In this document: positions 1-33,300 of the stretch, piece after piece | How positions within the stretch are numbered: position 1 is the stretch's first letter | Layout: every line of letters begins with the position of its first letter | From: Pseudisothecium myosuroides | Taxonomy: Eukaryota; Streptophyta; Bryopsida; Hypnales; Lembophyllaceae | Length of the DNA: 64,000 nucleotides | Reading direction: 5' to 3' | NCBI GenBank assembly: GCA_951799445.1 | Contig: OX637290.1 | Location: 32,916,987 to 32,980,986 of the forward strand | Notes under the pieces: generated by a model | What the model was told of the DNA's origin: nothing | Database searches by the model: none | What the model saw: the letters and a program-made list of their open reading frames with translations, nothing else | Position numbers and translations under genes: made by a program

Positions 1-690
1 TCCGATCTCCCGTGAGGTCTCGCTGCCCTAGTTGGTAAACGGAAGAGCTTTAGTTGATGTTGGAACAGACGGGTTCGCTTGTAACCACCTAACTTCGCAC
101 GGAGGGAACTTGGCATCAAGGTCGTTGTAGTATGAGAGGATCGTACGGGGGGTCTTTGTGTGACCTGCCAACCGGATCGCTGTCCGGGTGGCTGTGAGAG
201 ATCAAACCGGATCCGCGCTAGTGTAGGAAATAGTGGATTAGAGAAGTGGGTCTTCAGCCACTATAAGTCACGGAAGGAGTGGCGGGCCTGCCACTCTAAA
301 AAACAAGCGGCGAACCCTCTGATGGTAAAACAGAGGCAAAACTAAACCGGAGTATAATGAGAGTACGTGTGAGAGGACCGGATCGGATCGGTCCAGAGGA
401 GTTCCAGGATCAGAAGTGTTAGGATCCTGGGTTGTGGAAGTTTTACAGGACCGAATAGCTTGACAGGCCGGAAGAAATAGAGAGAGGTCTGGTCGTTGTT
501 TTTGGTGTGTTGTTTCCGGTTTTAGATCTAGGACCGGAAAGTAGAAATTGGAGACTGGCTGAGCTTAAGTTGGGAATAGAGCTAGACACTTCACAGAATC
601 TCGTGGGTTCGATCTTTAGAGTCATTTTGTTATGCTTTAGAGTGGTTTTTGGGAGTATAACAGGGAATTCACTTACTCTGTGCTGCGACA
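1..690 (+). mobile_element. 3' part of LTR-like element, family D (copy D0)
   Basis: This segment is the plus-strand counterpart of the 3' non-coding part of the D elements at 22478-23170 and 35590-36290, which lie in reverse orientation. It ends in TGCTGCGACA at 690, the same 3' terminus as D1. The next bases, AAAGC, join directly onto family C coding sequence, so D0 appears to be inserted in element C1. The 5' part of D0, including its ORF, lies before the window. It contains the conserved leader 12-mer GTCGTTGTAGTA (121-132) and the hairpin at 316-336. The short ORFs here are not supported as genes. Confidence 0.85.
316..336 (+). other. Conserved leader hairpin (CCTCTG ... CAGAGG)
   Basis: A 6-bp perfect stem, CCTCTG/CAGAGG, closes a 9-nt loop (ATGGTAAAA). 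The same hairpin with a nearly identical loop occurs in every C and D copy, at 3012-3032, 8611-8631 and 46305-46325 and in reverse near 22840 and 35950. A paired variant is present in E near 59365. Conservation among otherwise diverged families suggests an RNA structure in the element leader. Confidence 0.6.
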
Positions 691-691
691 A

Positions 692-2170
692 AAGCCCACC
701 CGGATTACAATGACTGTGGCAAATACAATTTTCGGAGCGCTGGGAGATAGAGAGAATCCGGCTCCCAGGCCGGTCAGTTGGGGAGTGATCATTCACTCTG
801 TAGTGGAAAAGTTAGCGGTCAATATCGCGAACAAGAAGTCAAGTCCGATTAGCCCCTATCTTTTCCATCTGTATCACTCCGAGGATGCATTGGCCGGACT
901 GAAAATGACAGTGTACCGGAAGGGCGAGAATCTGTTGCGGTACGGACTTCCCGCGGAGGATGAACCGGATGAGCTCGAGACGGAAGAAGAGGAACCGGAA
1001 CCGGAGCAGGCATCACCCAACGTTGGAGGGACGCGCCGGAAGTCGACTGATCAGGGTGCGCGGGGGAAACAGGAAGCCGAGGAGGTAGAGAAGCCCCGAG
1101 ACCCACTTCCGGATACGGATCAGCTAGAGGCCACCATCAAATGGCTAATAGCTACCCGGGCACAGAATGAGCGGATGGCGGCGCTGATCCCGGAGATGTG
1201 CGAGAAATTGGGAGTGAAGGAAGAAACCCAAATTCTGGTGGCGTTGGCGGAAAGGCCGGATCCGGAAGCGGTGAAGCAACTGGAGGACCGGATTCTGACC
1301 TTGGAGCAAGAACGGGATCGGTTTCGAGAACAAGCTGCGTGGTCAGAAAGAGAACGGATGGCCGCTGAAGGAAAGGAGGGAGAAGCCCTCGATCTGGTCC
1401 GGAATGTCCGGGGCCTGTTTGACAATCCGGCGGACATTCTTGCTAGAGCTACACTCTGGAATTCCCAAATGGTGAAGGATGGTCACGTGGTCGGATCGAA
1501 GGTGGTGAACATCCTCGTGGATTTTGAAGTCCGGATTGAGGGAATGCTAAAGGAAGTCCGGCAGCTGTTGGACAACCTGGATCCGCTTGAAGGCTTAGAC
1601 CAAGGTCTTTTTGACCTGGGTCATGATCTCCAAGAAGGAGGGGCACAGAATCAGCCTTCTCCGGCAAAGAACAAAACACTTGCCGGAATGTCGCAAGCCG
1701 GAACCGCATTGGCCCAGAAGAAGAGGTCATTAGTGAAGGAGTTTGCGGCCACGACTCCGGTGAGGGACGTTGTTCTAGGCGTGCCAGCCGGAAAAACTGC
1801 GTCCGTGGCGAATCTCTTCCCCGACAGACCGGTTGCTTCTACTTTCTGGGAACCAGCCTTACCCAAAACGATGTTGAACCCAGCTCGGACGGATCCGGTG
1901 AGTTTTACTCACATGCTCCAGCCCCTTCTGCAGACACCATTACCGTCCCAACTCATCGACCTTATTGTTCCGAAACCACGAGGGCGACGGTTACTGAACG
2001 AGGCGGACCCGGAATCGGAAGAGGAGGAGGAGGAGACGACTCAATCGGAGGAAGAAGAGTTGCAGCCTCCCCGGACCAGGTCAAAGACGAAGAACACCCC
2101 GCCCAAGAAGACAGGTGGATCGCCATCACAGGGTGGCACTTCTGTGAAGCAGGCTAAGAGAAATAAATGA
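692..2170 (+). CDS. C-family coiled-coil protein, N-terminally cut by D0
   Basis: The open frame corresponds to residues from about 142 onward of the intact 632-residue protein in C2, starting at KPTRIT. The frame runs without a stop from inside the D0 terminus into C, but the apparent start there is only the insertion junction; the first in-frame ATG is about 710. Visible parts are the end of a conserved N-terminal domain (NTIFGALGDREN, SPYLFHLYHSED), an acidic linker (EEEEPEPEQ), a coiled coil rich in E, R, L and Q, and a second acidic tract. The tail is basic. No enzyme motif is seen. Function unknown. Because the N-terminus is separated by an insertion, this copy is probably not functional. 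Confidence 0.75.
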   Translation, partial: KPTRITMTVANTIFGALGDRENPAPRPVSWGVIIHSVVEKLAVNIANKKSSPISPYLFHLYHSEDALAGLKMTVYRKGENLLRYGLPAEDEPDELETEEEEPEPEQASPNVGGTRRKSTDQGARGKQEAEEVEKPRDPLPDTDQLEATIKWLIATRAQNERMAALIPEMCEKLGVKEETQILVALAERPDPEAVKQLEDRILTLEQERDRFREQAAWSERERMAAEGKEGEALDLVRNVRGLFDNPADILARATLWNSQMVKDGHVVGSKVVNILVDFEVRIEGMLKEVRQLLDNLDPLEGLDQGLFDLGHDLQEGGAQNQPSPAKNKTLAGMSQAGTALAQKKRSLVKEFAATTPVRDVVLGVPAGKTASVANLFPDRPVASTFWEPALPKTMLNPARTDPVSFTHMLQPLLQTPLPSQLIDLIVPKPRGRRLLNEADPESEEEEEETTQSEEEELQPPRTRSKTKNTPPKKTGGSPSQGGTSVKQAKRNK

Positions 2171-2382
2171 CTATCTAGGGTAGCCGTAATAGTAGTTAGG
2201 ATTCTTACCAGGATAGTAGTTCCGGAAACGGATTTTCCGGATGTGGGACCGGTAGTTCCGGACTTTTAGGAGTTTAACGTTTTCCCGGTATTCCCGGAAC
2301 GGTCTTCAGGGCCGTTGCCTTTTTGCTTTTTGGTTGGCCGTTGGCCGGTTTTCTGGTGGCCGTTTGAGCTGCCGTTTTGTGG

Positions 2383-2392
2383 GTTTTTAAGG
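2383..2392 (+). promoter_or_regulatory. TATA-like box after the ORF in C1
   Basis: TTTTTAAGGG is followed by a conserved GGCAGGCCGGCTTGTTGGCC stretch and TCATTCC. The same block is at about 7983 (C2), 45676 (C3) and, diverged, 58693 (E). Placed after the ORF and about 0.9 kb before the element end, it fits a U3/R promoter of an LTR. Inference from conservation only. Confidence 0.5.
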
Positions 2393-2619
2393 GCAGGCCG
2401 GCTTGTTGGCCTGTCATTCCTTTTCCTTGTTCATTTAATCTGAAGCATTCAGAAAAGCACTCGTTGGATTATTCTCTTGCGTATCGCGTCTATAGTCACT
2501 TGTGTGGATGTGTAAGTGAGAGTGTGCAAGGGGAGGAGTCCGGATTCTTGGACTGCCGGATTAGGCTGAGTGTGTTTTATGGATGAATTATTAGACTTGC
2601 GCAGTGAGAAAGTGGCGCC

Positions 2620-2860
2620 TTTAAATTGTTGGTACGGTGATCCGGTGGAGACCAAGGAGTGGTCCGGAAGCTAGTCCGGAATTCGCAGGGGCGGTTCTGT
2701 GCGGAGATAGGCGACCGCCAGAGGAATATTTCCACCCATCCGGAAGGCTAGTCAACCTCATGAGCGGTCGAGAGCTAGGAAGTCATTCCCTTAGTTCCGG
2801 AAGTCCGGTATCCGTCGTTGTAGTAAGGAGGACCTAACGCTACCCTGTGTGACCAGCTTT
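2620..2860 (+). other. Conserved non-coding leader block of family C
   Basis: This stretch (TGATCCGGTGGAGACC ... GTCGTTGTAGTA ... CCTGTGTGACC) is almost unchanged in C1, C2 and C3 and recognisable in E (58990-59210). The D families keep the 12-mer GTCGTTGTAGTA and the GTGTGACC that follows. A possible stem GGCGGT/ACCGCC lies near 2690-2720. It is better conserved between families than most of the ORF, so it probably acts as RNA or DNA signal in the R/U5 region. Confidence 0.5.
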
Positions 2861-3354
2861 TCGAATAGGCCATCCGGAATGTTGTGAGGATGCCACCCTG
2901 TTTACTCAACTAGATTTATTCTTGGGTTGTGTTTTGTTTTATGCTAATAGAGTTTATGTCAGATACAGAGTGGTGCAGTTCCCCACCCCTTGGAAAGAGC
3001 AAGTGAGGAACCCTCTGAGGGTGAAACAGAGGTATCGAAAACCAACTTGTTAGAAAGACGGAACCGGAAGATTGTGTAGAGCTGAATCCGGAAGAGAATC
3101 CGGAAAGGAAGTAGTTCCGGAAAAAAGTTCATGTGTTGAAAGGACCCTTCTCGAGGTGGTCAAAATCCGGAAACTTAGAGGTCTCGAAACACTAATTTTG
3201 AATCAACGTCTGGAATCTCCTGGGACGATAACTTGTGTCATTTTAGCACGTTTCGTTGTTAAAGATACTTACGCCTAGATTACGCGTACGACAGGATATC
3301 ACGATCGCCGCATTCTAACACAAAACTATCGTGTATCGCAAAGCTAGAACTTCG

Positions 3355-3436
3355 TCGTGGGATCCCATGATGACGAGGTTCTATTGGATACAAGGTCCAA
3401 AGTGTAGTGCAGGACCATCGTGGGATCCCACGATGG
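3355..3436. repeat. Palindromes TCGTGGGATCCCACGA, downstream pair
   Basis: A palindrome with one mismatched pair is at 3355-3370 and a perfect 22-bp palindrome is at 3415-3436, both centred on TCGTGGGATCCCACGA. They lie just 3' of the minus-strand gene at 3500-4823. Related copies lie on its other side. Confidence 0.8.
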
Positions 3437-3499
3437 CCAGGTCTGGCCCTCTTGGATGACCTACAAACAAACTTATGTATATACTGACGGCATTCTTAC

Positions 3500-4823
3500 A
3501 TTGTACTCTTGCAAGTGTGCTCTGCCCAATATTGCTGGTTGTGGACTTCCCATGCTCCGCCACTTGATTCTTGCATTCAGCAGCTACTTCGTGAAGTTCT
3601 GCTCCTCCTATTCGCCTACGACGTTTTGGTTCAGCGCCCGCGAGAAGTGCAGTAGGTCTCCGTGGTGATCTTTGTCCGTCCACACAGGTAAAATATTAAA
3701 GGTGGAGGCGAGCTTCTTATCCTTCTTGGCAATCACACCAAGCCTAATCAGGTCTTTGAACGCCTGGACAATGTGTTGGCCGCCTATTATGTAGTGCGTC
3801 TTGGGATTTTCAAAGATTTCCTTCTTCGGCGCTTGCTTCTGGTAGTACGACACTACCTTCGCTGGGCCGTAGGGTTCCGCTTTAAGAGGAAGCATTGTTA
3901 TGACTCTATTCTCTAAGTCATAGTCTGGTGTGATTCGTGCCTTCCTCGTCAGCGCATCAAGCCGTTGTGCCTGAATTCCCCTGTACACGAGCAGTGCTTC
4001 TGGTGCCTGGTGCAGATAGTCATAGTGCATGCAGATGAGCTCTCTTTTGCTGTCAGAGAGTGGTTTCCTGCCCCATTTGTACAGGCCACCGAAGGAGTTC
4101 TCGTACAAGCTCTTCATCGCATTCATCTCTTCCGGTGTCATCTTCTTCACGTCAACCTCCCCTAAAGTCACAGCCCTATGCAGCGGAAGCGGGGTATTCG
4201 GTTTAGGCTTCTTTTCGGATGTCCCTGTTGCGGCATCATCTTCGTCCCCGGGAGCTCCAATTGCAAACTTCTTCTTCCTGTTCTTCTTCTTCGGGGACGG
4301 CGTGGGAGCAACCACTGTCATGGCTTCGGGGCGAGCGTTTGTATCTCGCAAGTCTTCCATGATTATGTCCCATTGGTTTTTCAGCTCTCTAGGCTTCCAC
4401 CGAGGCTTCGACGTGTCTTTGCACATCAGATGTGCCTTTGCAATCAGAGACTGGTACAGACTAAGGCTGAACTTTGTGTAGTCAAGGATCAGCCCAAACG
4501 TTATGATGTCCCCGGAAAGGGGAACCTTCTCCTCTATAACTAGGAGCGCTGTGTCGTCGTCAAGTCCCTTCAATTCAAGTACCCTGAGTCCGGCAGTCGG
4601 GTGCCCCATCGTCCCATTCATCAGTGTGGGAAGAATGATGGGGGAGCCGTCACTCTCTGCTTTCCAGGCAATACCCCAATGTGTAATCTGCTCGTCGCAT
4701 CGGAAAAAGGCTGCTGGTGGGTGTGGACCTGTGTACTCCATGGAAGTAATGTAGCAGAACTTGATGAAGGTATTAAGCTTCCTTGGTGTCAGTTCTTCTG
4801 GCCTTTCGTCCGCTTGCATTTCA
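3500..4823 (-). pseudogene. Internal exon of a GQH-motif (weakly ParB/sulfiredoxin-like) gene with two in-frame TAG codons
   Basis: An open frame of about 440 codons is bounded by an AG acceptor (TGCTGCAG, at 4824-4826) and a GTAAG donor (3495-3499), so this looks like an internal exon rather than a whole gene. The ATG at 4817-4819 need not be the start. The middle is a Lys- and Pro-rich linker (SPKKKNRKKK, EKKPKPNTP). After it, ENRVITMLPL and HYIIGGQHIVQAF recall the ParB/DGQHR fold, in which a GQH-type motif follows a short beta strand. This is a weak match and no nuclease function is claimed. Two in-frame TAG codons (3608-3610 and 3584-3586) interrupt it, and sensible sequence continues after each (EEQNFTK, LLNARIKWRSMGSPQ). 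Palindromic repeats flank the exon on both sides. Confidence 0.55.
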
Positions 4824-4922
4824 CTGCAGCATGGTAGAAGGAGATGTTAGTTTTTGACATTGTCCGGACGAGCAAATATTACCTTGATATTATTCCCGTT
4901 TCGAATTTAGATTTCATACATA

Positions 4923-5207
4923 GTCGTGGGATCCCACGACGGCTATTATTTCCAACTTGAAAGAGAAGGAAAGGTTGCGTGATCATTTTGATGATCAAGT
5001 TTTACAAACTACCATAGTCGTGGGATATCACGATTGGTTACATTCACGGACATTAGTGGGCAGGAGATCACTACTTTTCAGTTCACTTACTCAAGGCGTC
5101 CTGGCATATGACAAAGGCGCTAAAATATATAGAAGAGAGATTGGAATGTCTTAAAACTAGATCGGTGATGATCTGTAAAATTACACTCCATCGTGGGATC
5201 CCACGAT
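4923..5207. repeat. Palindromes TCGTGGGATCCCACGA, upstream group
   Basis: Perfect 18-bp palindromes occur at 4923-4940 and 5190-5207, and a diverged copy (TCGTGGGATATCACGA) is at 5018-5033. Together with the pair at 3355-3436 there are five copies within 1.9 kb, plus a half copy at 3294-3304, and none elsewhere in the window that I could see. If the acceptor at 4824 is real, these lie in the upstream intron. Confidence 0.8.
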
Positions 5208-5427
5208 TGATTGCAGGGTTGTCTTATTTGACACGTTTTTGGGTTTTGGTGTCGTGTTGAACGTCTGACGTCGCGTGTCGTATAGGACAACTTGACGGAT
5301 GGGCGTCGCACCTTGTCGCGTAAGGGTAAAAAAATTTATCCCATTAAAACTCGATGTCACCTACGTGGCAATCTCTAAAAATTGATGTGGCAATTGAAAA
5401 CCACGTCAGCATAGGCGACTACAGGTG
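5208..5427. other. Non-coding flank of C2
   Basis: No gene is seen. The sequence has CG-rich short repeats (GTCGCG, ACGTGGCA) resembling the region 39990-40110 in reverse, so C2 is probably inserted into an older non-coding repeat. Confidence 0.4.
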
Positions 5428-5715
5428 GGGGTTGTGGGAGTACGTATCATCCGGAAAGTCCCAATTAACAATTTAGTGGAGGTAAAAGTAGCAGAACTTT
5501 TTCAATTTTTGCATTTAAATACGAAGTTAGGACTTAGATATTAGAAATAGAAATTAGTTTCTACGTAGAAAAGATAAAACTCTAAATAGGCTACGCAGCC
5601 TGCCGGAAAGCCGGAAAGTTCCGGAAAGTTCCGGATTGTAGGGACCTACCGCCTAGGTTCCGGCTAGGGAACTTACGGGAACGTTTTTGGCGGCGGGAAC
5701 TTAGGGTTCTGACAG

Positions 5716-5726
5716 GTACTTAAACC
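5716..5726 (+). promoter_or_regulatory. TATA-like box before the C2 ORF
   Basis: GGTACTTAAACC lies about 150 bp before the ATG. The same box is at about 44840 (C3) and 57562 (E), about 40 bp before a conserved stretch (GAGAGAAAGAGTGGTG) that looks like a 5' untranslated leader. Confidence 0.5.
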
Positions 5727-5869
5727 CCACCGCCAGCCTCATTCAGTCTCTTTTACCCGTGCTCTTCCACGGTGCGTTAGAAGAGAGAAAGAGTGGTGAG
5801 TTAGGGCGTGTTAGGGAGAGAAAGGGAGGAAGGTGCCGATTGCACCGGATTGTCCTAGCAGTCGGTGAG

Positions 5870-7768
5870 ATGGCGAAAGCGAGTCGATCCCGGAGGTCGG
5901 TAGTGACAGCCCGGGGCGTACGTCCGGTTATCCCATCGGATCCGGAGCGCCTGAAGGAGTTAGAAGAGGACCTAGAAATCATGGGGTGTTTAGGATTAGT
6001 AAAACGTCCATGGAACGTCTGGAGTGAAGAGATGATTGACGAGCTGGTTTCCGGAGTGGGTAATCAGTTTGATTTGACGATTAGGGGTCGATCTAGGGCC
6101 TGGACTCCGGAGTTGTGGGCGAAGGCATACTTTACGCCAAGCAGGGGTTCCGGAATAGCGTCCCGGACGGACACTTACGCCCTGGAGGTATTCTGGAGTC
6201 ATGCAGATTCCAAGGAAGGGAACACCGCGAGTGATTGTAAGAGTCCCTGGGATGGGCAATTGTTAGCATTCCTCATCCCTATCTTGTATCCGGAAAAGCC
6301 CACCCGGATTACAATGACCGTGGCAAACACTATTTTTGGAGCGCTGGGAGATAGAGAGAATCCGGCTCCCAGGCCGATCAGTTGGGGAGTGATCATTCAC
6401 TCCGTAGTGGAAAAGTTAGCGGTCAATATCGCGAACAAGAAGTCAAGTCCGATTAGCCCCTATCTTTTCCATCTATATCACTCCGAGGATGCACTGGCGG
6501 GACCGGAAATGACAGTATACCGGAAGGGCGAGAATTTGTTGAAATACGGACTTCTCGCGGAAGATGAACCGGATGAGCTTGAGCCGGAAGAAGAGGAACC
6601 GGAACCGGAGCAGGCATCACCAAACGTTGGAGGGACACGCCGTAAATCAACTGATCAGGGTGCGCGGGGGAAGCAAGAAGCCGAGGAGGTGGAGAAGCCC
6701 CGAGAATCACTTCCGGAAACAGATCAGCTAGAGGCCACCATCAAATGGTTGTTAGCTACCCGGGCACAGAATGAGCGAATGTCGGCGCTGATCCAGGAGA
6801 TGTGCGAGAAATTGGGTGTAAAGGAAGAAACCCAACTCCTGGTGGCATTGACGGAAAGGCCAGATCCGGAAGCGATGAAGCAACTAGAGGACTGGATTTT
6901 GACCTTGGAGCAAGAACGGGACTGGTTTCGAGAACAAGCTGCGTGGTCGGAGAAAGAGCGGATGGCTGCTGAAGCAAAGGAGGGAGAAGCCCTCGATCTG
7001 GTCCGGAATGTCAGAAGCCTGTTTGACAATCCGGCGGATATTCTTGCTAGAGCTACACTCTGGAATAATCAAATGGTGAAGGATGGTCATGTGGCCGGAA
7101 CGAAGGTGGTGAGCATCCTCGTAGATTTTGAAGTCCGGATTGAAGGAATGCTCAAGGAAGTTCGGCAACTGTTGGGGAACTTGGATCCGCTTGAGGGGTT
7201 AGACCAAGGCCTTTTTGACCTGGGTCAAGATCTCCAAGAAGGAGGGGCACAGAACCATCCTTCTCCGGCAAAAAGTAAAACAATTGCCGGAACATCGCAA
7301 GCCGGAACAGCATTGGCCCAGAAGAGGAGGTCGCTAGTGAAGCAGTTTGCGGCCTCGACTCCGGTAAAGGACGTTGTCCTAGGCATTCCAGCCGGAAGAA
7401 CTGCGTCGGTGGCGAATCTCTTCCCCGACAGACCGGTTGCTTCTACTTTCTGGGAACCAGCTTTACCCGGAACGGTGTTGAACCCAGTGCGGACGGATCC
7501 GGTGAGTTTCACTCACATGCTCCAGCCCTTTCTCCAGACGCCGCCACCGTCCCAGCTCATCGATCTTACTGTTCCGAAACCAAGAGGGCGACGGCTACTG
7601 AGCGAGACGGTCCCGGAATCGGAAGAGGAGGAGACGACTCAATCGGAGGAAGAAGAGTTGCAGCCTCCCCGGACCAGGTCGAAGACAAAGAACACCCCAC
7701 CACAGAAGACAGGTGGATCGCCATCTCAGGGTGGCACTTTTGTAAAGAAGGCTAAGAGAAATAGGTGA
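5870..7768 (+). CDS. C-family coiled-coil protein, intact (632 aa), function unknown
   Basis: This is the only complete copy of this protein in the window. I chose the ATG at 5870 (MAKASRSRR) because the longer frame begins with a GTG and lies in the leader conserved in C3 and E. Residues about 20-190 form a conserved domain also present in D1 (LGLVKRPW, NQFDLTIRG, WTPELWAKAY, KPTRITMTVANTIFGAL, SPYLFHLYHSED). An acidic, Glu/Pro-rich linker follows, then a long coiled coil, a segment ending in LVDFEVRIEGMLKEVRQLL that is shared with D and E, a Pro/Ser-rich part, an acidic tract and a basic end (KKAKRNR) that could be a nuclear signal. No polymerase, protease, integrase or zinc knuckle is visible. 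A Gag-like or DNA-packaging role is possible but is only a guess. Confidence 0.8.
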   Translation: MAKASRSRRSVVTARGVRPVIPSDPERLKELEEDLEIMGCLGLVKRPWNVWSEEMIDELVSGVGNQFDLTIRGRSRAWTPELWAKAYFTPSRGSGIASRTDTYALEVFWSHADSKEGNTASDCKSPWDGQLLAFLIPILYPEKPTRITMTVANTIFGALGDRENPAPRPISWGVIIHSVVEKLAVNIANKKSSPISPYLFHLYHSEDALAGPEMTVYRKGENLLKYGLLAEDEPDELEPEEEEPEPEQASPNVGGTRRKSTDQGARGKQEAEEVEKPRESLPETDQLEATIKWLLATRAQNERMSALIQEMCEKLGVKEETQLLVALTERPDPEAMKQLEDWILTLEQERDWFREQAAWSEKERMAAEAKEGEALDLVRNVRSLFDNPADILARATLWNNQMVKDGHVAGTKVVSILVDFEVRIEGMLKEVRQLLGNLDPLEGLDQGLFDLGQDLQEGGAQNHPSPAKSKTIAGTSQAGTALAQKRRSLVKQFAASTPVKDVVLGIPAGRTASVANLFPDRPVASTFWEPALPGTVLNPVRTDPVSFTHMLQPFLQTPPPSQLIDLTVPKPRGRRLLSETVPESEEEETTQSEEEELQPPRTRSKTKNTPPQKTGGSPSQGGTFVKKAKRNR

Positions 7769-8229
7769 CTATCTAGGGTAGCCGTAATTATAGTTAGGAT
7801 TCTTACCGGGATGGTAGTTCCGGAACCGGATTTTCCGGATGTGGGTCCAGTAGTTCCGGACTTTTAGGAGTTAAACGGTTTCCCAGTTTTCCCGGAACGG
7901 TCTTTAGGGCCGTTGCCTTTTTGCTTTTTGGTTGGCCGTTGGCCGATTTTTCTGGTGGCCATTTGGGCTGCCGTTTTGTGGGTTTTTAAGGGCAGGCCGG
8001 CTTGTTGGCCTGTCATTCCTTTTCCTTGTTCATTTAATCTGAAGCATTCAGAAAAGCACTCATTGGATTATTCTCTTGCGTATCGCGTCTATAGTCACTT
8101 GTGTGGATGTGTAAGTGAGAGTGTGCAAGGGGAGGAGTCCGAATTCTTGGACTGCCGGATTAGGCTGAGTGTGTTTTACGGATGAATTATTAGACTTGCG
8201 CAGTGAGAAAGTGGCGCCTTTAAATCGTT

Positions 8230-8470
8230 GGTACGGTGATCCGGTGGAGACCAAGGAGTGGTCCGGAAGCTAGTCCGGAATTCGCAGGGGCGGTTCTGTG
8301 CGGAGATAGGCGACCGCCAGAGGAATATTTCCACCCATCCGGAAGGCTAGTCAACCTCATGAGCGGTCGAGAGCTAGGAAGTCATTCCCTTAGTTCCGGA
8401 AGTCCGGTATCCGTCGTTGTAGTAAGGAGGACCTAACGCTACCCTGTGTGACCAACTTTCCGGATAGGCC
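8230..8470 (+). other. Conserved leader block of C2, with hairpin at 8611-8631
   Basis: Same block as at 2620-2860, with GTCGTTGTAGTA at 8413-8424 and the CCTCTG/CAGAGG hairpin 190 bp further on. A TATA-like TTTTTAAGGG at about 7983 precedes it. Confidence 0.5.
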
Positions 8471-8898
8471 ATCCGGGATGTTGTGAGGATGCCACCCTGT
8501 TTACTCAACTAGATCTATTCTTGGGTTGTGTTTTGTTTTATGTTAATAGAGTTTATGTCAGAGACGGAGTGGTGCAGTTCCCTACCCCTCGGAAAGAGCA
8601 AGTGAGGAACCCTCTGAGGGTGAAACAGAGGTATCGAAAACCAACTTGTTAGAAAGACGGAACTGGAAGATTGGATAGAGCCGGATCCGGAAGAGAATCC
8701 GGAAAGGAAGTAGTTCCGGAAAAGAGTTTGTGTGTTGAAAGGACCCCTTTCGAGGTGGTCAAAGTCCGGAAACTTAGAGGTCTCGAAACACTAATTTTGA
8801 ATCAACGTCTGGAATCTCCTGGGACGATAACTTGTGTCATCTTAGCACGTTTTTGTTGTTAAAGATACTTATGCCTAGATTACGCGCTCGACAGGGGT

Positions 8899-9060
8899 GC
8901 ATGAAGGTCAAGCTTAGGCGACCGCGGGTCCAAATTTTAGGGCAACTTTGGGTTTAAAAAGTAGGGCGACTTTGGGTTTAAGAATTAGGGCGACTTTGGA
9001 TTTAAGAGTGACCTCTGGTCTTGGGCGACCTCGGGTGGGCGACCTCTTTGTTGCAATTGG
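8899..9060 (+). repeat. GGGCGACTTTGGG repeat fragment
   Basis: Short degenerate tandem copies of GGGCGAC(T/C)T(T/C)GGG. The same unit forms the large array at 13780-16140 and appears in reverse at 39840-39920. Confidence 0.7.
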
Positions 9061-10745
9061 CAAATAATGCTCAAAACTGCCATTTTTGGTGCAAAGAACA
9101 AAAAATTCAAAAATAGTATTTTTTTGCATATGTAGCCGTAGGATCTTGCAATAGAATAGTATAAAAATGTGTGGAAAAAATTTCAGACATTTGCACCACA
9201 TAGATTACAAGATAAATGAGTTCAAAGTGAAGAAATCATATTTTAAGGCACAATAGTTTAACCCCTAAGGATCCAAGGGGGGGGGGGGTTCTTTCAAAAT
9301 GGGCCAAAACTGCCAACAACTTGAGCAATTTTTTTGATCCATTTTTTTGGAGATCGGATATAATGTAACAATAGGATCTTAAAGTTAACATTGAGAGTGA
9401 GCACCTCAAAAAATTTCAAATTATTTGACCGCATGGTTTAGGAGATATTTAATTTTGAAGTTTTATTTGGGTTAATGGAAATACAGGGCAGCTCACTTTG
9501 AAGGAGCATATTTTTGTGAGAGTATTTCAAAATGATGCCTTTTTTGTGCTCATTGAAAGATAAGAGAGTTGAAAATGCACATGTACAATTTCATAACATT
9601 CCAAGAATTTTACAATTCATGGTGAAGCTTGCAATGCACAGTGGACACTGAAATTTGAGTAGTGTTTGCAAGAGAAAAAAGAATGGGACACTTGTCTTCT
9701 CCTTGAGCTCCTTGGATCTGAACTTTTCAAGGTGGATTTGACCTTTATGAGGTGGGAAAGAAGCTCATTGGTTGGTTGACTTTTTAGTCCTTGCCCAAAT
9801 CGAATACAAAAAAACGAATTGTAAATTAGACTACACTGCTAAACTTTGAAAAATTCCACAAGGGGGAGTTTAACTCAAAATTTGATGAAACCACTGCCAT
9901 TGGATTTGTAACAAAGTCTATTTTTTTAAAATAAATTTTATTTTTCAAAAAACTCAAACTATGATAATGGGCAGCTCAAAAAACAGGGGTAGCGACCAAA
10001 AAATGGTCACTTGGGTCCTTAGGGGTTAAGAGACTTTGAATCTTCTTAACTTTAAAAGTTTGCACTATAGATCTTGAATTAAATTTTTTTTCATCATTCA
10101 AAATTGAGTTGAAGATATAAAAGAAATTAAAATTAAAAAAGTGTTGAGTTTTTTTTTCGTTAAAAAACTATTAAGTAGAAGAAGGTACATCATAGAGGGA
10201 AAAACTAAATCATTAATAGCTCTAAGATGGAATTAAGCCACACTAATCCCAATGGTGAGATTATCTTAAAAATCAAAATTAATTTTGCAGAATTCTTTGT
10301 TTGAATTTTTTTTAAATTGAGCCCAATTATAAATTCTATATCTAATTTTTCTAAAATGATACTATAATTGCCCACAAGACAGGATGCTTCATAACCTTCG
10401 CATCATCCATCCAAATGAAATGAATCAAAAGTATCACATGTAGACAAAAATACAATCTATGAGAAAAAAAATATTAATTTTTATTTCAAATTTTTGTAGA
10501 TTTGTTTTTGCCTACCTAATTTTGATCTAGGCTTATTGTGATAGAACTCTTGGTGTTGGTCACCAATTAAAATAAAAATTACATTCTCAAAAAGCTAATA
10601 ATTTTTTTTCTCTTATGAATAAGTTTCAAAAAGTTTCATTAGAAATTGACCATATAGGAACTTGCCAAATCTTTTTTACCTCTTGTGAAGATAATGAGAC
10701 TTTAGGGGTTAACACCCTATCAATGTATTATTTATCAAGAAGATT
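9060..10745 (+). repeat. Dispersed non-coding repeat J (copy J1)
   Basis: AT-rich, no gene. It matches 19085-19617 plus 27890-28400 and, in reverse, 39295-39860, sharing the landmarks AACTGCCATTT, GTAGGATCTTG, TAGCTCTAAGATGGAA and ATGAATCAAAAG. The motif TTAACCCCTAA occurs repeatedly. At about 10370 it preserves the uninterrupted site (ACTATAATTGCCCA) at which F is inserted in the other copy. Confidence 0.6.
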
Positions 10746-11409
10746 TTGTAATTTTAACCCCTAAATTCCCAAGGCCTTTATTGAGCTTCTAGGAATTTGC
10801 TCTAAATTGAACAAAAATCCAACATTTTGATAAGTTGTATCAATTTTTCTAAAATTGTAATTGTATAAATTCAAACTAGACATGTTAGAGATCACATAGG
10901 AAAATAAAATACAACAATATCACTTATGAATTAAAAGATTATAATGTTTGAACACGAGGGTGTTAAAAATGCAAAAATGACTTGAAGTTTTTCAACCCTC
11001 TTTTCACATGCCAAATCAAAAAAGTTGGTCACCTAGAAATATGAGGTTAAAGGACCTAATATGCGTAACTCCAACCAATTTATGGCTTCTCAAAATCTAC
11101 TCTACAATTTTTTTAAATGAATTTCTAAGGTGGTTTTTTCTCCAAGATCTAGTGTATTTGAGGCTCATTTCCAAAAGCCCTCAACACTATGGAAAGTCAA
11201 GATTGCAATCGGTACCCTTGTACAAAATCTTGATGAGAAAAATCATAATCAATCATTTGCAAAATTGGATTTTTGATGCTAAAATCAGACTTCTAAGAGA
11301 ATTTTACAAAAATATAAACTACTAAAAAAATAAACTTGATTAGGTTTTATTTAACTTCAAAATATTGTCGACACCAAAATTTGGTGCCTCGAGCATTTAG
11401 GGGTTAATA
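10746..11409. other. AT-rich non-coding stretch
   Basis: I see no gene. The 105-codon frame at 11008-11325 has no recognisable motif and AT-rich composition like its surroundings, so I treat it as chance. Confidence 0.5.
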
Positions 11410-13360
11410 TGGAGTACATAAATAAAGTTTTATGTCAAAACATCCCCATTTGAATTTTTCTACTCTCTAAGCATCATCATATTCATGTATTATCTATCAC
11501 CTTCATCTAAAACTTAAGAATTAGAGGAAAGAGGTTTAAATTAAAACTTCCACTTTTGATTTATGCAAATCTCACATATCCTATCGGTGTGTTATATATG
11601 AAGTGGGTTTTAAAATACAAAATAATGGATAGAGATTTTAAAAAGAACTTTTTCATTTGAATTTCTCTATTCTCAAAGCATCATCATATTCATATACGAT
11701 TTACCATCTTGATTTAAAACTTAAAAAGTGAAGGTAGGAGATTTAAATAAAAACTTCCCTTCTTGGTTTATGAAGAAAATAATGTCAAAGAATCATCCTA
11801 ATGGTGTATTATTTGTGAAGTAGATTTTAAAATATAAAACAATGGATGGAGATTTATGGAAGAACTTCCCCATCTGAATTTCTCTATTCACCAAGCATCA
11901 TTGTATTCATATATTATTTATCATCTTCATCTAAAACTTAAGAATTAGAGGAAAGAGGTTTAAATTAAAACTTCCGCTTTTGATTTATGCAAATCTCACA
12001 TATCCTATTGGTGTGTTATATATGAAGTGGGTTTTAAAATACAAAATAATGAATAGAGATTTTAAAAAGAACTTTTTCATTTGAATTTCTCTATTCTCAA
12101 AGCATCATCATATTCATATACGATTTACCATCTTGATTTAAAACTTAAAAAGTGAAGGCAAGAGATTTAAATAAAAACTTCCCCTCTTGATTTATGAAGA
12201 AAATAATGTCAAAGAATCATCCTAATGGTGTATTATTTGTAAAGTAGATTTTAAAATATAAAACAATGAATGGGGATTTATAGAAGAACTTCCCCATCTA
12301 AATTTCTCTACTCTCCAAACATCATCATATTCATGTATTATTTATCATCTTCATCTAAAACTTAAGAATTAGAGGAAAGAGGTTTAAATTAAAACTTCCG
12401 CTTTTGATTTATGCAAATCTCACATATCCTATTGGTGTGTTATATATGAAGTGGGTTTTAAAATACAAAATAATGAATAGAGATTTTAAAAAGAACTTTT
12501 TCATTTGAATTTCTCTATTCTCAAAGCATCATCATATTCATATACAATTTACCATCTTGATTTAAAACTTAAAAAGTAAAGGCAAGAGATTTAAATAAAA
12601 ACTTCCCCTCTTGATTTATGAAGAAAATAATGTCAAAGAATCATCCTAATGGTGTATTATTTGTAAAGTAGATTTTAAAATATAAAACAATGGATGGAGA
12701 TTTATAGAAGAACTTCCCCATCTAAATTTCTCTAGTCTCCAAGCATCATTGTACTCATATATTATTTACCACCTTCGCCCAAATTTTCAAAATTAGAGGA
12801 AAGAGATTTAAATTAAAACTTTTCCATTTGATTTATGCAAATCTCACATATCCTATTGGTGTGTTATATATGAAGAGGGTTATAAAATACAAAATAATGG
12901 ATAGAGATTTTAATAAGAACTTCTTCATTTGAATTTTCCTATTCTCAAAGCATCATCATATTCATATATGATTTACCATCTTGATTTAAAACTTAAAAAG
13001 TAAAGGCAAGAGATTTAAATAAAAACTTCCCCTCTTGATTTATGAAGAAAATAATGTCAAAGAATCATCTTAATGGTGTATTATTTGTGAAGTAGATTTT
13101 AAAATATAAAACAATGGATGGAGATTTATGGAAGAACTTCCCCATCTGAATTTCTCTATTCACCAAGCATCATTGTATTCATATATTATTTACCACCTTC
13201 ACCCAAATTTTCAAAATTAGAGGAAAGAGATTTAAATTAAAACTTTCCCTTTTGATTTATGCAAATTTTAAAGAGTCATCCTAAGACCTAAGGGTATATT
13301 ATTTATGAAATGGATTTTAAAATTCAAAATAATGCTTGGAGGTTTATAGAAGTACTTTCC
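11410..13360. repeat. 424-bp dimeric satellite, about 4.5 units
   Basis: The landmark CTCACATATCC recurs at 11571, 11995, 12419 and 12843, exactly 424 bp apart. Each unit holds two related halves: GAATTTCTCTATTC is at 11659, 11876 and 12083 (217 and 207 bp apart). One half contains TTTATGCAAATCTCACATATCC, the other AAAATAATGTCAAAGAATCATCC in the same place. No coding potential. Confidence 0.9.
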
Positions 13361-13779
13361 CATTTGATTAATTTTTTTTATCAAAGAATCATAGTCAAAT
13401 AAACAAAAAACAAGCATATAGTAGCATATTCCCCTTTCCACAAAATTTGAATGTTTAATGGAAATTGAGACCCTATCATCACATTTATCAATTGGAGTGA
13501 ATTTATAGATCAATATACTTGTGGTGTGATTCAAGCCCTACTAATGACAATCCAAAGTGACCAAATTTTAAGAAGAATTTTAATATTTAATAAATGAGAT
13601 TAGGTATCTAAATATTGAATTCTAATCTCATCGAGCTACAATTAGTTATCTACTTATCTCACCTAACATAGAATTACATTAATATGCCTTGAAAACTGAC
13701 GCATGTACAATTTACCATAATTAAGCAGGCTATTATTATATTTGATTTCCCTCCAAAATGCCATGCTTTGGATTCTTTG
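13361..13779. other. Non-coding spacer between two satellites
   Basis: AT-rich sequence that decays from the 424-bp satellite. No gene or repeat of its own recognised. Confidence 0.4.
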
Positions 13780-16140
13780 GGCAACTTTGGATCCACGGCG
13801 ACCTCAGGTAGGCGACTTCTTGTCCAGGGCAACCTCTTATAGGCGACCTCTTGTCTTGGACGACTTCGGGTGGAGGTGAGAACCATTGTCTTTTCAGCTT
13901 TGTTCAAAATTTGGCAATTTGGGGGGTTCTGCGGGCGACCTCTTGTCTTGGACGACTTCAGGTGGAGGTGAGAACCATTGTCTTTTCAGCTTTGTTCAAA
14001 ATTTGGCAATTTGGGGGGTTCTGCGGGCGACCTCTTGTCTTGGGCAACCGTGGGTGGAGGTGGAAGCCTTGGCCTTCTCTTTATTCCCAAATTGACAAAT
14101 TTTGGGGTTCTACGGGCGACTTTGGGTCTAGAGCAACCTCTTATAGGAGACCTCGGGTTTAGGGCGACCTGTTGTCTAGAGAGACCTCTTTTGGGCAACC
14201 TCTTGTCTTGGGCGACTTCGGGTGGAGGTGAGAACCATTGCCTTTTCAGCTTTGTCCAAAATTTGGCAATTTGGGGGGTACTGCGGGCAACTTCGGATCT
14301 TGGATGACCTCTTATGGGCGACCTCTTGTCTTGGGCGACCGTGGATGGAGGTGGGAGCCTTGGCCTTCTCTTTGTCCTAAAATTGGCAAATTTTGGGGTT
14401 CTATGGGCGATTTTGGGTCTTGGGCGACCTCTTGTGGGTGCCCTCGGGTCTAGGGCAACTTCTTGTCTTGGGCGACCGTAGGTGGAGGTGGAAGCCTTGG
14501 CCTTCTCTTTGTTCCAAAATTGACAAATTTTAGGGGTTCTATGGGCAACTTCGGGTTTAGAGCGACCTCTTGTGGGCGACCTCTTATCTAGGGTGACCTC
14601 TTATCTTGGGCAACTTTGGGTGGAGGTGAGAACCATTGCCTTTTCAGCTTTGTCCAAAATTTGGCAATTTGGAGGGTTCTACTAGCGACTTCGGGTCTTG
14701 GGCGATCTCTTGTGGGCGACCTCGGGTCTAGAGCGACCTCTTATGGGCGTCCTCTTGTCTTGGGCGACTTTGGATGGAGATGAGAGCCTTGGCCTTCTCT
14801 TTGTCTTGAAATTGACAATTTAATTTGTTATATGGGCAACTCGGGTCTTGGGCGACCTCTTATGGGCGACTTTTTGCCTTGGGCGACGGCAGGTGAAGGT
14901 GGGAGCCTTGGCTTTCTCTTTGTTCTAAAATTGACAAATTTTAGAGGTTCTATGGACGACTTCGGGTTTAGAGTGACCCCTTGTGGGAGACTTCTTATCA
15001 AGGGTGACCTCTTGTCTAGGGAGACCTCTTATGGGCGACTTCTTGTCTTGAGCTACTTTGGGTAGAGGTGATAACCATTGCATTTTGAGCTTTGTCCAAA
15101 ATTTGGCAATTTTGGGGGTTCTACGGGCGACTTCAGGTCTTGGGCAACCTCCTGTAGGCAACCTCAGGTCTTGGGCGAGTTTGGGTGGAGGTGAGAGCCT
15201 TGGCTTTTGTTTTGTTTTGAAGTTGGCAATTTAAGAGGTTATATAGGCGACTTCGGGTCTTGGGCGACCTCTTGTGGTCGACCTCGGATCTAGGGCGACC
15301 TCTTATGGACAACTTCTTGCCTTGGACGACCGCGGATGGAGGTGGGAGCCTTGGCCTTCTCTTTGTCCCAAAATTGACAAATTTTAGGGGTTCTATGGGC
15401 AACTTCGGATTTAGAGCGACCTCTTGTGGGCGACCTCTTATCTAGGGCGACCTCTTGTCTTCGGCAACTTTGGGTGGAGGTGAGAACCATTGCCTTTTCA
15501 GCTTTGTCCAAAATTTGGCAATTTGGGAGGTTCTACTAGCGACTTCGGATCTTGGGCGACCTCTTATGGGCAACTTCTTGTCTTGGGCAACTGTGGGTGG
15601 AGGTGAGAGCTATTGCTTTTTGAGCTTTGTCCAAAATTTGGCAATTTGGGGGGTTCTACGGGCGAATTTGGGTCTTGGGCGACCTCTTATGGGCGACTTC
15701 CTGTCTTGGGTGACTTCTTATCTTGGGCGACTTTGGATGGAGGTGAGAGCTATTGCTTTTTGAGCTTTGTCCAAAATTTAACAATTTTGAGGGTTCTACG
15801 GGTAACTTTGGATATTAGGCAACTTCTTATGGATGACTTCTTGTCTTGGACGACCGTGGATACAGATGAGAGCCTTGGCCTTTTCTTTGTCTCAAAATTG
15901 GCAATTTTGGAAGTTCTATGGGCAACTTTGGCTCTCGGACAACCTCTTGTGGGCAACCTCAGGTCTAGGGTGACCTCTTATGGGTGACCACGGGTGGAGT
16001 TAGGAACGTTGGCATTCTTTTTGTCCCTAAATTGACAATTTTTGAGGTTCTACGGGCGACTTTGGGTTTAGAGCGACTTCTTGTGGGCAGCCTCTTGTCT
16101 ACAACAATCTCAGGTGAAGATGGAGCTATTGCTTTCTCCT
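13780..16140 (+). repeat. GGGCGACCTC-rich satellite
   Basis: Tandem array of short units such as TTGGGCGACCTCTTGT and GGGCGACTTCGGGTC, organised into irregular longer blocks that also contain AGCTTTGTCCAAAATTTGGC and GGTGGAGGTGAGAACCATTG. Block spacing varies from about 100 to 400 bp. Long frames here (up to 124 codons, both strands) arise because the repeat lacks stop codons in some frames. They read as repeated RPLMGDFLSWAT and are not genes. Confidence 0.85.
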
Positions 16141-21850: not shown

Positions 21851-23505
21851 TTAACTAAGCAATCAAACAACTAAATTAAACTAAGGATTTTTAAGGTTTG
21901 TAGAATAACAAAGCAAACAACTAAACAAAATAAAGGTTAAACTAACGGCTAAAGGTTGGGAAATTTCTAAACTAAGCAACTAAACTAAATGGGGGGTTTT
22001 GAGGATTTATGGGCAAAAGTGATAGACCAAACAAAACTCTAAAACTTGTGACTTGACAATGAGAGCAAAACAATGCAATGAGCAATTTCCGGCGGAAGAA
22101 AGGGAACCACTGGGCGTGAGTTGTTGGCTTAAGTAGCCAACACACCAAGGGTGTTTTTCCCAATTATTCCTTCAAGTTCAAAGTAAATCCTAATTGAGGT
22201 AAAAGCTTCGTCGTGCGGGAGCAACCCCAGGCTAAACTCGTCAATTATAGTTCCAAGCGGCTATAGAAATGTCTTAATTCTTAAAGAAGGTACTCATGAA
22301 AGTGTTTAAACCGAACATTAAGGACTAAATAATTCCCAAGGTCTCCGGATGTTTTAATTCCTAAATGAGGTTTACATGAAAGTGTTTAAACCGAAAAGTA
22401 GGAATTAAGTCAAACCAAACTTTGTTATACAACGAAGTTTGGCTCGTATTTTGAGTGTTGGAATCTTTTGGCAAAGATGTCGCAGCACAGAGTAAGTGAA
22501 TTCCCTGTTATACTCCCAAAAACCACTCTAAAGCATAACAAAATGACTCTAAAGATCAAACCCACGAGATTCTGTGAAGTGTCTAGCTCTATTCCGAACT
22601 TAAGCTCAGTCAGTATCCAATTTCTACTTTCCGGTCCTAGATCTAAAACCGGAAACAACAACACACCGAAAACAACGACCAGACCTTTCTCTATTTCTTC
22701 CGGCCTGTCAAGCTATTCGGTCCTGTAAATCTACTACAACCCAGGATCCTACAACTTCTGATCCTGGTACTCCTCTGGACCGATCCGATCCGGTCCCCTC
22801 ACACGTACTCTCACTACACTCCGGTTTAGTTTTGCCTCTGTTTCACCATCAGAGGGTTCGCCGCTTGTTTTTGAGAGTGGCAGGCCCGCCACTCCTTCCG
22901 TGACTTATAGTGGCTGAAGACCCACTTCTCTAATCCACTACTTCCTACACTAGTGCGGATCCGGTTTGATCTCTCACAGCCACCCGGACAACAATCCGGT
23001 TTGCAGGTCACACAAAGACCCCCCGTACGATCCTCTCATATTACAACGACCTTGATGCCAAGTTCCCTCCGTGCGAAGTTAGGTGATTACAAGCGAACTC
23101 GTTTGTTCCAACATCAACTAAAGTCCTTCCGTTTACCAACTAGGGCAGCAAGACCTCACGGGAGATCGGACACTCCACCGGATTTCCTATCCAGGAGTTC
23201 TAGTGCGACTAAGGACTCCTTCCCTATCCGCCTAGCCTAACAACGGTTTTCTCGCCCAGAATCGTGAACTGTAGAGGCGCTGAGGAACTGAAATCCGCTT
23301 CCAACACTTAGAATACCCACTCACATGCACATAAGAGCAAAACAAACACACCAAGGGGAGAAATCTCTCTAGAATCTGCACACATCTTCCTAACTTCTCA
23401 CCAAAACAGCTCTGCCACGCGCGGGAGAGACGTACAACAAGAAATCAATAGAAAACGCACAAAAACTCAAGGGAAAAGACTCGCAGTCTCCTTCGCAGAG
23501 ACTGA

Positions 23506-23513
23506 CTATATAC
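23506..23513 (-). promoter_or_regulatory. Second TATA box of D1, after the ORF
   Basis: GTATATAG on the minus strand, 165 bp after the ORF stop, is repeated in D' near 36615. It is in the same relative position as the TTTTTAAG box of family C and would start a transcript covering the roughly 1-kb leader. Confidence 0.5.
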
Positions 23514-23676
23514 ATTTTAAAACTCAAAAGTCAACACAAAGGGGCCCGGAAAGTCCGCGCGGAACTTTCGGTCCCTGCCGAGCCGGCCAGACCGGAAAAC
23601 ATCCGATCCAGACCAGCCATACCGGACCAAATCCGGTCCGGTCCTAACTAACAAATATTTACAACTAAAATCCTAA

Positions 23677-25446
23677 CTATCCTATCATAACCGGATCTAC
23701 TCCTTGATCCGTTCCTTTGTCCATGACTTGGTCTTCGCCTTGGTCCACGCTCTGATCTTGATCCTCACCCTGATCTGGGGTCAGATCCATACTTTGATCT
23801 TTCCCCGGGTTCAGTGTGGGACTTCTAGGTGGTTCCGCTCCAAGCTGCTCGGAGACGTCCGTCAAGTTCCGGTTCCGCTCCCCGGTTTCACGTTCTGGGA
23901 GATCCGGTGACGAATCCAAGTTGATGGTATGCGCGAGCTTCCTCCCACTCTTTTTTGACTGGGGAGTCCGATTCTTTCCTTCCGTCGGAATGCCCACGTT
24001 CGGAAAAGACCCGGGCATTGAAAGGTCGGACAGATGGAACGACCGTGACAACGTCACTCCGTTCAGCTTCCTGCTGCTCTCTTCCATCCGGTTTGCAGCC
24101 TCTCGCGCTTCCATCATGACTAACTCCACCTTCTCGGAGTAGTCCGTCAAAATACGGACCAACCTGGTTCCGGATATCTTCTTCTCCTTGAGGACTCCCT
24201 CGTCAAACAGCTTTGACTTGGTGACGGCCTCTCCGGTTGCCCCAAATGTGGCCTTCACGTCCTCGGCTACTTTCCGGGTAGCTTCCGCCATCTCCCGTGT
24301 GGTAGCCATGTCCTCCTTGAGGAGCAACATTTCCGTCTTCAACAACTCGTTCTCTTCTTGGAGTCGTCGTATCTCCGCTTCTTGCTTCCGGATCTCATCC
24401 GGGCTGGAGATGAAATCTGCAACCACTCCCGCAAGGTTGCTGTCTGTTGGTGCTCCCACCAGCTCGCTGATCTGGTTCAGAATCAGCTTCTTTACCGTCC
24501 AGTCTGCTCGTACATCGCTCAGGATGTTGATCAGCTGGTGGAACGGATCCGTCGGATCCGATCCGGAAGGACCCGGTTCTCCAAAAACCGGTTTCTTCCC
24601 TGGGTTGGAGGTCTCAGCCGGAGGGGTTGGGGTTCCTCTCCGGTGAGGAGGCGTCGTCTTCTGCCGCTTGTGCTGCGATCGGAGTTGCTCCTCCTCTTCT
24701 TCTTCTTCCTCCTCGGAACCGGATACTTCTTCCTATTCTTCTTCTTCCGATTTCGATTCTCCATACTTCAGGAGTGACTCCTGAGTCTTCCACTCCTTCT
24801 CCTCCGTATCCGTGAGGAGTTGATTGTGCTTGTACAGATGGACAAGGTAGGGACTCAATGGAGTCGGTCTACTTCCTCCGATCTTCGGAATTAGACGGTT
24901 GACCAGATCGAATAAAATCCTGGCCCAGTCTACTTTCCGTTCCCCGCTCAGGGCTCCAAAAATGAGGTTCCCAATGGCAATGGTCACCCTCGTCGGCTTA
25001 TCCGGGTGGATGATCGGAACCAGGAACTGGAGAAGGTTCCGATGCCGATCGTCCAGACAATCCGCGACCGCGTGCCTGTCCTTCGAGTCTACGTCGCTCT
25101 GGAACTTCCCCCGCGTGTATCCTTCCTTCGAGGAGGCCATCCCTCGACCTCCGGACCGGAATCCGTACACGGCCTTCCACATCTCTTCCGTCCAACTGCT
25201 CGGAATTCCGCGGATGGTCTTGTCAAACTGATTCGAGAGTTTTCCCAACAGCTCTCGAATCATCCGTTCCTCCCTAAACCCCCAGGGTTTATCGATCAGC
25301 CCTCCGCAACCCATCTTGGCGAGATCCTCTATCAGGTTGTCCTTTTCCTTCTCTTCTACTAGAATAATCGGACACACCTTCCGGAGTTTCACTTCTACTG
25401 CGGAGGAACTGGACGGCCCTGCTCTACTCTTGCGGAGCTGAGGCAT
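23677..25446 (-). pseudogene. D-family coiled-coil protein, 590 codons with one in-frame TAG
   Basis: Homologue of the C2 protein. I use the ATG at 25444-25446 (MPQLRKSR). The N-terminal domain matches C2 clearly: GLIDKPWGF, NQFDKTIRG, SSWTEEMWKAVYGF, KPTRVTIAIGNLIFGAL, LSPYLVHLYKH. At 24733-24735 (codon 238) a TAG interrupts a run of glutamates; the same frame then continues (EEVSGSEEEEE ...) through the coiled coil to the end (DPVMIG). Original codon was CAG or GAG. The C-terminal repeat of DQGEDQ-type units is peculiar to family D. It would make a full-length protein only if the TAG is suppressed. Confidence 0.75.
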
Positions 25447-25723
25447 GGACACGAGCTGTGCTAAACCGGATTCTCACTGAGGCTACCTTTCCCTCTCTTA
25501 GCCGCACGTCCCGTTTCTCACCTTCGCTCTTCCGATCTCAACCGAAATACCTCTAAACCTGCAACACACGCTAAAGCGCTGCGCGCTCTAACACACTAAC
25601 ACGCACACACAAACCAACTCACAAAACAAGGGAGCAAAGCGCTGGGGAGGGAAGCTAAGTACAAGCTGGAGCGAGATTTCCGCAAACAAAGATTGAAAAA
25701 GAGTGGCCACTGGATTGGTCAGC

Positions 25724-25733
25724 CTATATATAG
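25724..25733 (-). promoter_or_regulatory. TATA box of the D1 ORF
   Basis: CTATATATAG on the minus strand lies about 280 bp before the ATG. Confidence 0.6.
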
Positions 25734-26310
25734 TCTGATCTGTCATCATGACCAAATCCGTTCCTGACCCAATCCGTTCCAATTCAGATCCGCTCCAACT
25801 CTTATCCGGTTTAGATTCAGATCGAATCCGGATTGTCACCTATTCCGTTCCGTAGTTAATTTCCGGTTTCCTGTTACCTCTTGCTTGAATCTGGATACCA
25901 GATCACGGTTTCCGTTCAAAGATTTAGATAACTTACAAAAAACCAAAAATTCGCACTGCGACAAAAGACTAGCTTCACCGCCTTAAAAATTCTTAATTCA
26001 AACTATTGCGAAAACACGAAATTAGTATGTGACAAGGTATGCAAGTTTTTTGGGGATGAAGCCTCCCAAAAATATAAACTTAGTGTGGTTGTGAAGGTTG
26101 AAAGGAAACCCCGAGTCCTTAACCGAATCCTCCACTAAAAGAAAACAAAAAGAACAAAAATGAGCAAAGATGACCAAAATTTGGTCTAGCTTAATTGCTT
26201 CCGACAAAGCCGGTAAGCAAATGGAACAAAGAAAGAGTGTCTGTACTCCGACAGAGTGTCGGTAGGCAGATAATGAACAAAATGGGGTACGACAAACTTC
26301 GCGGGGAGGC

Positions 26311-33289: not shown

Positions 33290-33300
33290 CCTATATAAGG
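33290..33300 (+). promoter_or_regulatory. TATA box of element H
   Basis: CCTATATAAGG followed by GCCCC and a CT-rich start region. Identical in G (reverse, 37989-37999). Confidence 0.65.

Follow-up and report, generated by a model that had tools for sequence, protein, structure and literature searches.

In the genome of Pseudisothecium myosuroides (Bryopsida), a stretch of 64,000 nucleotides on contig OX637290.1 (C4:32916987-32980986; hereafter "the window") contains several units that end like long terminal repeats (LTRs) and carry a single gene and nothing else, which raises the question of what kind of element they belong to and what the gene does. A sequence-only reading had taken them for solo LTRs of a very large retrotransposon whose LTR itself encodes a coiled-coil protein. 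Searches of the genome (388 Mb, 222 contigs) lead to the answer that the units of one family, C, are solo LTRs of a Ty3/Gypsy retrotransposon with a selected gene in its LTR, and that related genes and one kind of motif, a short word around CCGGA, are shared by the C, D and E units of the window.

Four units define the problem. C2 (L001; 5433-8893, plus strand, 3461 bp), a C-family solo LTR with a complete LTR gene, is flanked on both sides by GGGGT; D1 (22478-25963, minus strand, 3486 bp), a D-family LTR unit, by AAAGA; C3 (44542-46587, plus strand, 2046 bp), a C-family solo LTR with most of its open reading frame (ORF) deleted, by CATGG; and E (57249-59655, plus strand, 2407 bp), an LTR unit of a diverged third family that keeps the C-terminal 273 amino acids of the gene, by ATTAG. 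All four of them show TGT...ACA ends and exact 5-bp duplications, the chance of four such exact matches being about (1/1024)^4, and the ends, lengths and target duplications thus stand as first described. C3 lies within a hAT transposase gene: when its flanks are joined, a 310-amino acid open frame spans the junction, with hAT-type Pfam domains on both sides. The hAT-type transposase ORFs, carrying DUF659 and dimerisation domains, occupy 43717-47978 on the minus strand and are split by C3. The units were also said to lack a second, internal LTR and any polymerase (pol) gene. When the first 900 bases of C2, D1 and E were each compared with the last 900, no terminal repeat appeared, and a six-frame Pfam scan of window positions 1-15002, which span C2 and a further C unit, gave no match and hence no pol there. 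The two ORF pieces of D1 had no Pfam match at the cut-off (only PF21804 at an E-value of 0.089), and for C3 and E the absence of pol was judged from their ORF lists only.

The identity of the C units is decided by complete elements elsewhere in the genome. The search with C2 (43 matches; 40 of 1238 first-look candidates scored) led to two elements on contig C6, A (L002/L003) and B (L016/L027), in which direct pairs of C-type LTRs flank about 5.97 kb. Both have a 5-bp duplication outside the element (CGTAC for A, CATGT for B), a primer-binding site, TTTTGGCRCCGCTGCCGGG, directly after the 5' LTR, which we take to be of the tRNA-Asp type, and a purine tract, GAAAATGGGGTAA, directly before the 3' LTR. 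The internal region of A, which was the one scanned with profiles, contains in Ty3 order PF03732 (Retrotrans_gag), zf-CCHC, RVT_1 (537-698), RT_RNaseH (788-892) and Integrase_H2C2 (1003-1058); the same scan returned no row for a protease or an integrase core. Since gag is separate and lies in the internal region, the LTR ORF, 632 codons long in C2, is not a gag from some short-LTR element, and that candidate explanation was rejected. With LTRs of 3.45-3.47 kb and an internal region of 5.97 kb, the whole element measures about 12.9 kb, so that the predicted retrotransposon, with pairs of LTRs in direct orientation and pol and a primer site between them, was found for the C family, its size being modest and not "very large". 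The LTRs of a pair differ at few positions (6 of 3474 in A, 20 of 3454 in B), which indicates recent insertion. In a search with pol, 40 of 233 candidates were scored; the 3' LTRs of four of these 40 loci were examined, and all four carry the LTR gene: in two the frame is open across the 632 amino acids, in two it is interrupted, one of the latter being only 76% identical.

The C LTR is widespread beyond these loci. Its 3'-end pattern has 275 exact matches in the genome, as compared to 0 for the control. Among the first 100 of these 3' ends listed, nine pairs on the same strand were identified by eye, with recomputed spacings of 9458-9474 bp, and the remaining 82 are solo or incomplete at that exactness. 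On the plus strand of the contig that is itself labeled C2, three C-LTR 3' ends in one orientation (41931408, 41935063 and 41944521) are spaced 3655 and 9458 bp apart, which may reflect an additional LTR next to a complete element. Of 30 C-LTR loci inspected, four belong to A and B and 19 have exact 5-bp duplications, including two pairs that are near-identical duplicates of each other. In L019 and L030 duplications become visible by eye once the end is extended by seven bases; L011, L012, L013, L021 and L023 are unclear, cut or damaged, and the left flank of L012 resembles a purine tract.

For the D family the situation is different in that no complete element was found. D copies are numerous in the genome, and seven of ten checked on both sides have exact duplications. 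None of 30 copies (these ten, and twenty examined on the 3' side) shares an internal flank, and two pattern searches revealed no shared primer site. This lack of an internal region is surprising, given that the copies found are 93-96% like D1. Together with the 5-bp duplications, it would fit stand-alone DNA transposons with the LTR-encoded protein as transposase. Such an origin is nevertheless highly improbable, as the C units form the LTRs of elements that contain gag and pol, a primer site and a purine tract; for the C family itself, the complete elements rule it out. The findings on complete elements hold for the C family; none was seen for the E family, which was not searched.

The gene of C2 (5870-7768, plus strand) encodes a protein of 632 amino acids with a helical N-terminal domain, a coiled coil (as in the sequence-only reading) at about residues 283-436, and a disordered tail with a basic C-terminus. 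The profile search proposed for this protein matched no Pfam family, and its well-modelled N-terminal domain matched no solved structure. The D1 gene (23677-25446, minus strand) contains one in-frame stop at 24733-24735, and its product shares about 30% identity with that of C2 along 438 amino acids; the C and E proteins share about 32% identity over the compared part. Within the window the intact ORF is that of C2, and C3 retains about 150 amino acids. A further C-family LTR, C1 (691-3293, plus strand), keeps the last 486, the start of its gene having been removed by D0, a D-family LTR inserted into it whose end lies at window positions 1-690 (plus strand; C4:32914194-32917676, the remainder being outside the window). 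Across the C-LTR copies L001-L030 the frame is open in 17 of 30, and diversity at first, second and third codon positions is 0.031, 0.024 and 0.083. The median ratio of nonsynonymous to synonymous change (dN/dS) is 0.177 (119 of 120 pairs of 16 LTR-gene copies). The LTR gene is thus under purifying selection. In the same copies, diversity of the non-coding LTR is 0.036 and therefore below that of third codon positions, so that leader and promoter regions seem constrained as well. Among the homologues P0001-P0053, P0007, a record of another organism, matches the window from position 5807 on and so from before the start codon of C2 (RERKG...; 5807-5869), a hint of a conserved leader.

The position of the gene relative to promoter elements was described as a box before the ORF and a second box, followed by a leader, after it. 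Both are clear in D1, where TATA boxes stand at unit positions 232 and 2452 (window positions about 25732 and 23512), on either side of the ORF. The second box, TTTTTAAG, is shared by C2 (7983-7990, plus strand), C3 and E, and is probably the promoter for the genomic RNA, with R-U5 to follow. The first box was not detected near the ORF start in C2 and C3 by pattern search, so that the description of a box ahead of every ORF holds only in part. With the U3/R border placed by the TTTTTAAG box, the C family has an intact ORF in U3 that is conserved across copies.

The second feature that sets the units apart is the motif. It mostly takes the form W-W-CCGG-A-W and occurs in the two complete elements examined in both orientations and in all reading frames. 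Counted on both strands, so that the palindromic TCCGGA counts twice, CCGGA occurs 61 times in C1, 81 in C2, 47 in C3, 8 in D0, 41 in D1, 31 in D2 (a D-family LTR unit at 35590-37686, minus strand, truncated at 37686 beside another repeat) and 35 in E, as compared to 39 times in the remaining 47 kb of the window. When palindromes are counted once, the units contain 44, 57, 32, 8, 35, 27 and 24 sites in the same order, or 10-17 per kb, versus 31 in 47 kb (0.66 per kb) outside the units and 12 in 40 kb of 20 arbitrary genome stretches. All 32 motif-rich 500-bp bins of the window (at least 5 sites) overlap units. Around 18 C-LTR loci, flanks of 1.5 kb contain 172 CCGGA in 54 kb (3.2 per kb), 90 of them at L004, which is nested in another C LTR, and L007; without these two loci, 82 remain in 48 kb. 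The motif also runs through the internal regions: in element A there is on average one site per 57 bp of LTR and one per 81 bp of internal sequence (61 cores per LTR and 74 between, 196 in total, palindromes once), and L031 and L032, which span the internal regions of A and B plus some LTR sequence, contain 122 and 130 CCGGA in 6.5 kb, at 3 to 14 per 500 bp.

Such density might be a mutational or compositional by-product, for example of a CpG-rich, codon-biased element, and CpG and GC are indeed higher in the elements than in the rest of the window. This explanation is very improbable, as the word far exceeds what composition provides. The 81 CCGGA of C2 compare with a mean of 10.8 and a maximum of 21 in 200 dinucleotide-preserving shuffles, and CCGGA is the top 5-mer by z-score in C1, C2 and C3 and the second in D1, D2 and E, behind the overlapping ATCCG. 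Likewise, CCGG reaches 14-20 per kb in the elements, whereas other NCGN words stay at 7.6 per kb or less. The excess also holds within coding sequence under synonymous shuffling (palindromes once): the C2 ORF has 31 cores versus a mean of 10.7 and a maximum of 17 in 300 shuffles, and in element A the main pol ORF has 45 versus a mean of 16.9 and a maximum of 26 in 300. The latter cores are distributed 19/10/16 over the frames, the six frame classes of motif sites being linked in pairs by palindromes. All eight gag-pol stretches lie above twice their synonymous-shuffle mean. This enrichment over shuffles across all frames is the strongest argument for selection on the motif. In addition, conservation of the C2 motif sites across the other copies is 88%, as compared to 70% for 276 other CG-containing 5-mers, and non-coding CpG bases vary less within motifs (0.051) than outside (0.076).

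What might read the motif? The families differ in their preferred flank, C favoring TCCGGA and D favoring ACCGGA: the ratio of TCCGGA to ACCGGA is 24:12 in C2, 6:22 in D1, 11:7 in E and 28:21 inside element A (Fisher p 0.0004 for C2 versus D1 and p = 0.004 for internal A versus D1). This difference bears on a reading in which the LTR gene is selected for some other task (RNA export, packaging or nuclear entry), while the motif is read by a host factor that the element exploits, for instance a transcription factor or a chromatin enzyme directed at CCGG. The protein has no recognised DNA-binding fold, and C and E have a similar motif despite their distant proteins, both of which would suit a host factor. 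A host factor would, however, favor one word for all families, and the unlike preferences of C and D make this reading rather unlikely. The dense motif running from end to end of the complete elements examined suggests an element-encoded protein that recognises its own DNA, and on balance we lean towards a self-recognition system in which the LTR-encoded protein binds the motif of its own element. A protein that marks the DNA of its own element would be consistent with both the dense sites and a selected, element-encoded product whose coiled coil is of the dimerisation type and whose tail is basic.

In this proposal, the LTR protein would be a nuclear DNA-binding protein that dimerises by its coiled coil, and targets the CCGGA-type motif. 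A promoter of its own in U3 would drive its expression, by which solo LTRs could keep producing it. The position in the LTR would provide two promoters, one before the ORF and one before R, an arrangement that is clear only in D1. CCGG offers cytosines in CG as well as CHG context. The protein may coat its own element and thereby activate it or keep host methylation off, and motif and protein would change together, each family serving its own copies. VANC proteins, as outlined in the available text of the report on them, bind dense motifs of their own VANDAL element and remove methylation (PMC5735166), and by analogy the most likely role of the LTR protein would be the activation or unsilencing of its own element. 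A fuller version, which we put forward tentatively, is that the LTR may contain a complete self-recognition system: a protein of unrecognised fold and about 200 predicted sites spread from one end of the element to the other, synonymous positions in gag and pol among them, with protein and motif changing together between families and solo LTRs as single-gene stations still making the protein. If so, the C protein would be predicted to target TTCCGGAA-type DNA and the D protein AACCGGAT-type DNA without cross-reaction between C and D, and solo LTRs would feed the protein supply of the elements.

Several observations weigh against self-recognition. Non-palindromic CCGGA sites are unequally oriented, with sense to reverse ratios of 23:10 in C2, 18:11 in D1, 15:8 in D2, 30:16 inside A and 7:6 in E. 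The roughly 2:1 sense bias in the C units, and the self-complementarity of TCCGGA, would suit a motif that acts in RNA (packaging, dimerisation or structure). At least one third of these sites are reversed in D1, E and internal A, however, D favors the non-palindromic form, and the bias could also stem from the purine-rich sense strand; a role in RNA is therefore very unlikely. The bias could equally reflect a partly strand-specific function. With regard to enrichment, two of the eight gag-pol stretches do not exceed the maximum of 500 shuffles (7 versus 7 in A, 9 versus 10 in B), nor do three of the eight exceed that of 300 when palindromes are counted once, and the shuffle maximum is likewise not exceeded by the D1 ORF (17 versus 17) or the E ORF part (7 versus 9). 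Non-CpG fourfold sites vary less inside motifs than outside whichever of the nine reference copies is used, but the difference reaches p < 0.05 with only five of them; CpG fourfold sites hardly differ (0.108 in motifs versus 0.126 outside), and non-coding motif bases are overall no less variable than others (0.041 versus 0.034). Given these mixed results on variability, constraint at the DNA level is supported, not proven. Furthermore, the C2 protein has no recognisable DNA-binding domain among Pfam families, and the link between protein and motif is their co-occurrence in three families of one genome. Finally, VANC motifs, in the available description, form same-orientation arrays in non-coding DNA, whereas the motif described here is dispersed, in both orientations and also within genes.

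Other repeats occur elsewhere in the window. A pair of 1607-nt inverted repeats (32002-33608 and 37683-39289, 99% complementary) has one arm that abuts the truncated D2, and additional inverted arms are found at 29695-30579 and 34714-35582. A foldback-like 944-nt inverted repeat (52806-53749 and 54454-55397, 99% complementary) encloses a 704-nt spacer. Long tandem arrays occupy 11418-13392, with alternating 207- and 217-nt spacings, and 13797-16130.

Genes that reach into LTRs are familiar from retroviruses, where sag of mouse mammary tumour virus, nef of lentiviruses and bel/tas of foamy viruses overlap U3, and foamy-virus tas acts as a transactivator and has an internal promoter. The C-family gene resembles them in that a gene overlapping U3 is present in the LTR; unlike theirs, it lies wholly within the LTR; the likeness considered here is one of position. 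In plants, the ORFs of Retand, Grande, RIRE2, Retrosat2 (ORF0) and sunflower Tekay provide, in the available parts of the respective reports, examples of an extra gene of unknown function that is sometimes nuclear or predicted to bind DNA, and the LTRs of Retrosat2, too, are longer than 3.2 kb (PMC7264820, PMC11963269, PMC3485330, PMC12844716). The ORFs of Retand, Grande, RIRE2 and Retrosat2 are described there as internal, between pol and the 3' LTR or before gag-pol, unlike the LTR gene of the C family. The available text of a plant review on additional ORFs makes no mention of LTR-resident genes (PMC7264820), and the titles and abstract openings of phrase-matched literature, including an Arabidopsis study that uses "LTR-encoded" once (PMC7319988), reveal no plant gene encoded in an LTR.

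It is an open question how transposons evade silencing while the rest of the genome stays silenced. To our knowledge, VANC is the one well-studied plant answer. As far as the available text on VANC and VANDAL in Arabidopsis goes, the likenesses comprise a short motif that is dense in the cognate, Mutator-like transposable element and rare elsewhere, a protein encoded by that element and a motif that differs between families (PMC5735166); for the system described here, binding and demethylation are proposed. The Pfam search of the C2 protein, which matched no family, gave no similarity to VANC. In contrast to VANDAL, the element described here is an LTR retrotransposon and not a Mutator-like element, and its gene is placed inside the LTR. 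Next to VANC, the C-family retrotransposon would seem to have found a separate solution of its own, with the target word running through coding DNA as well.

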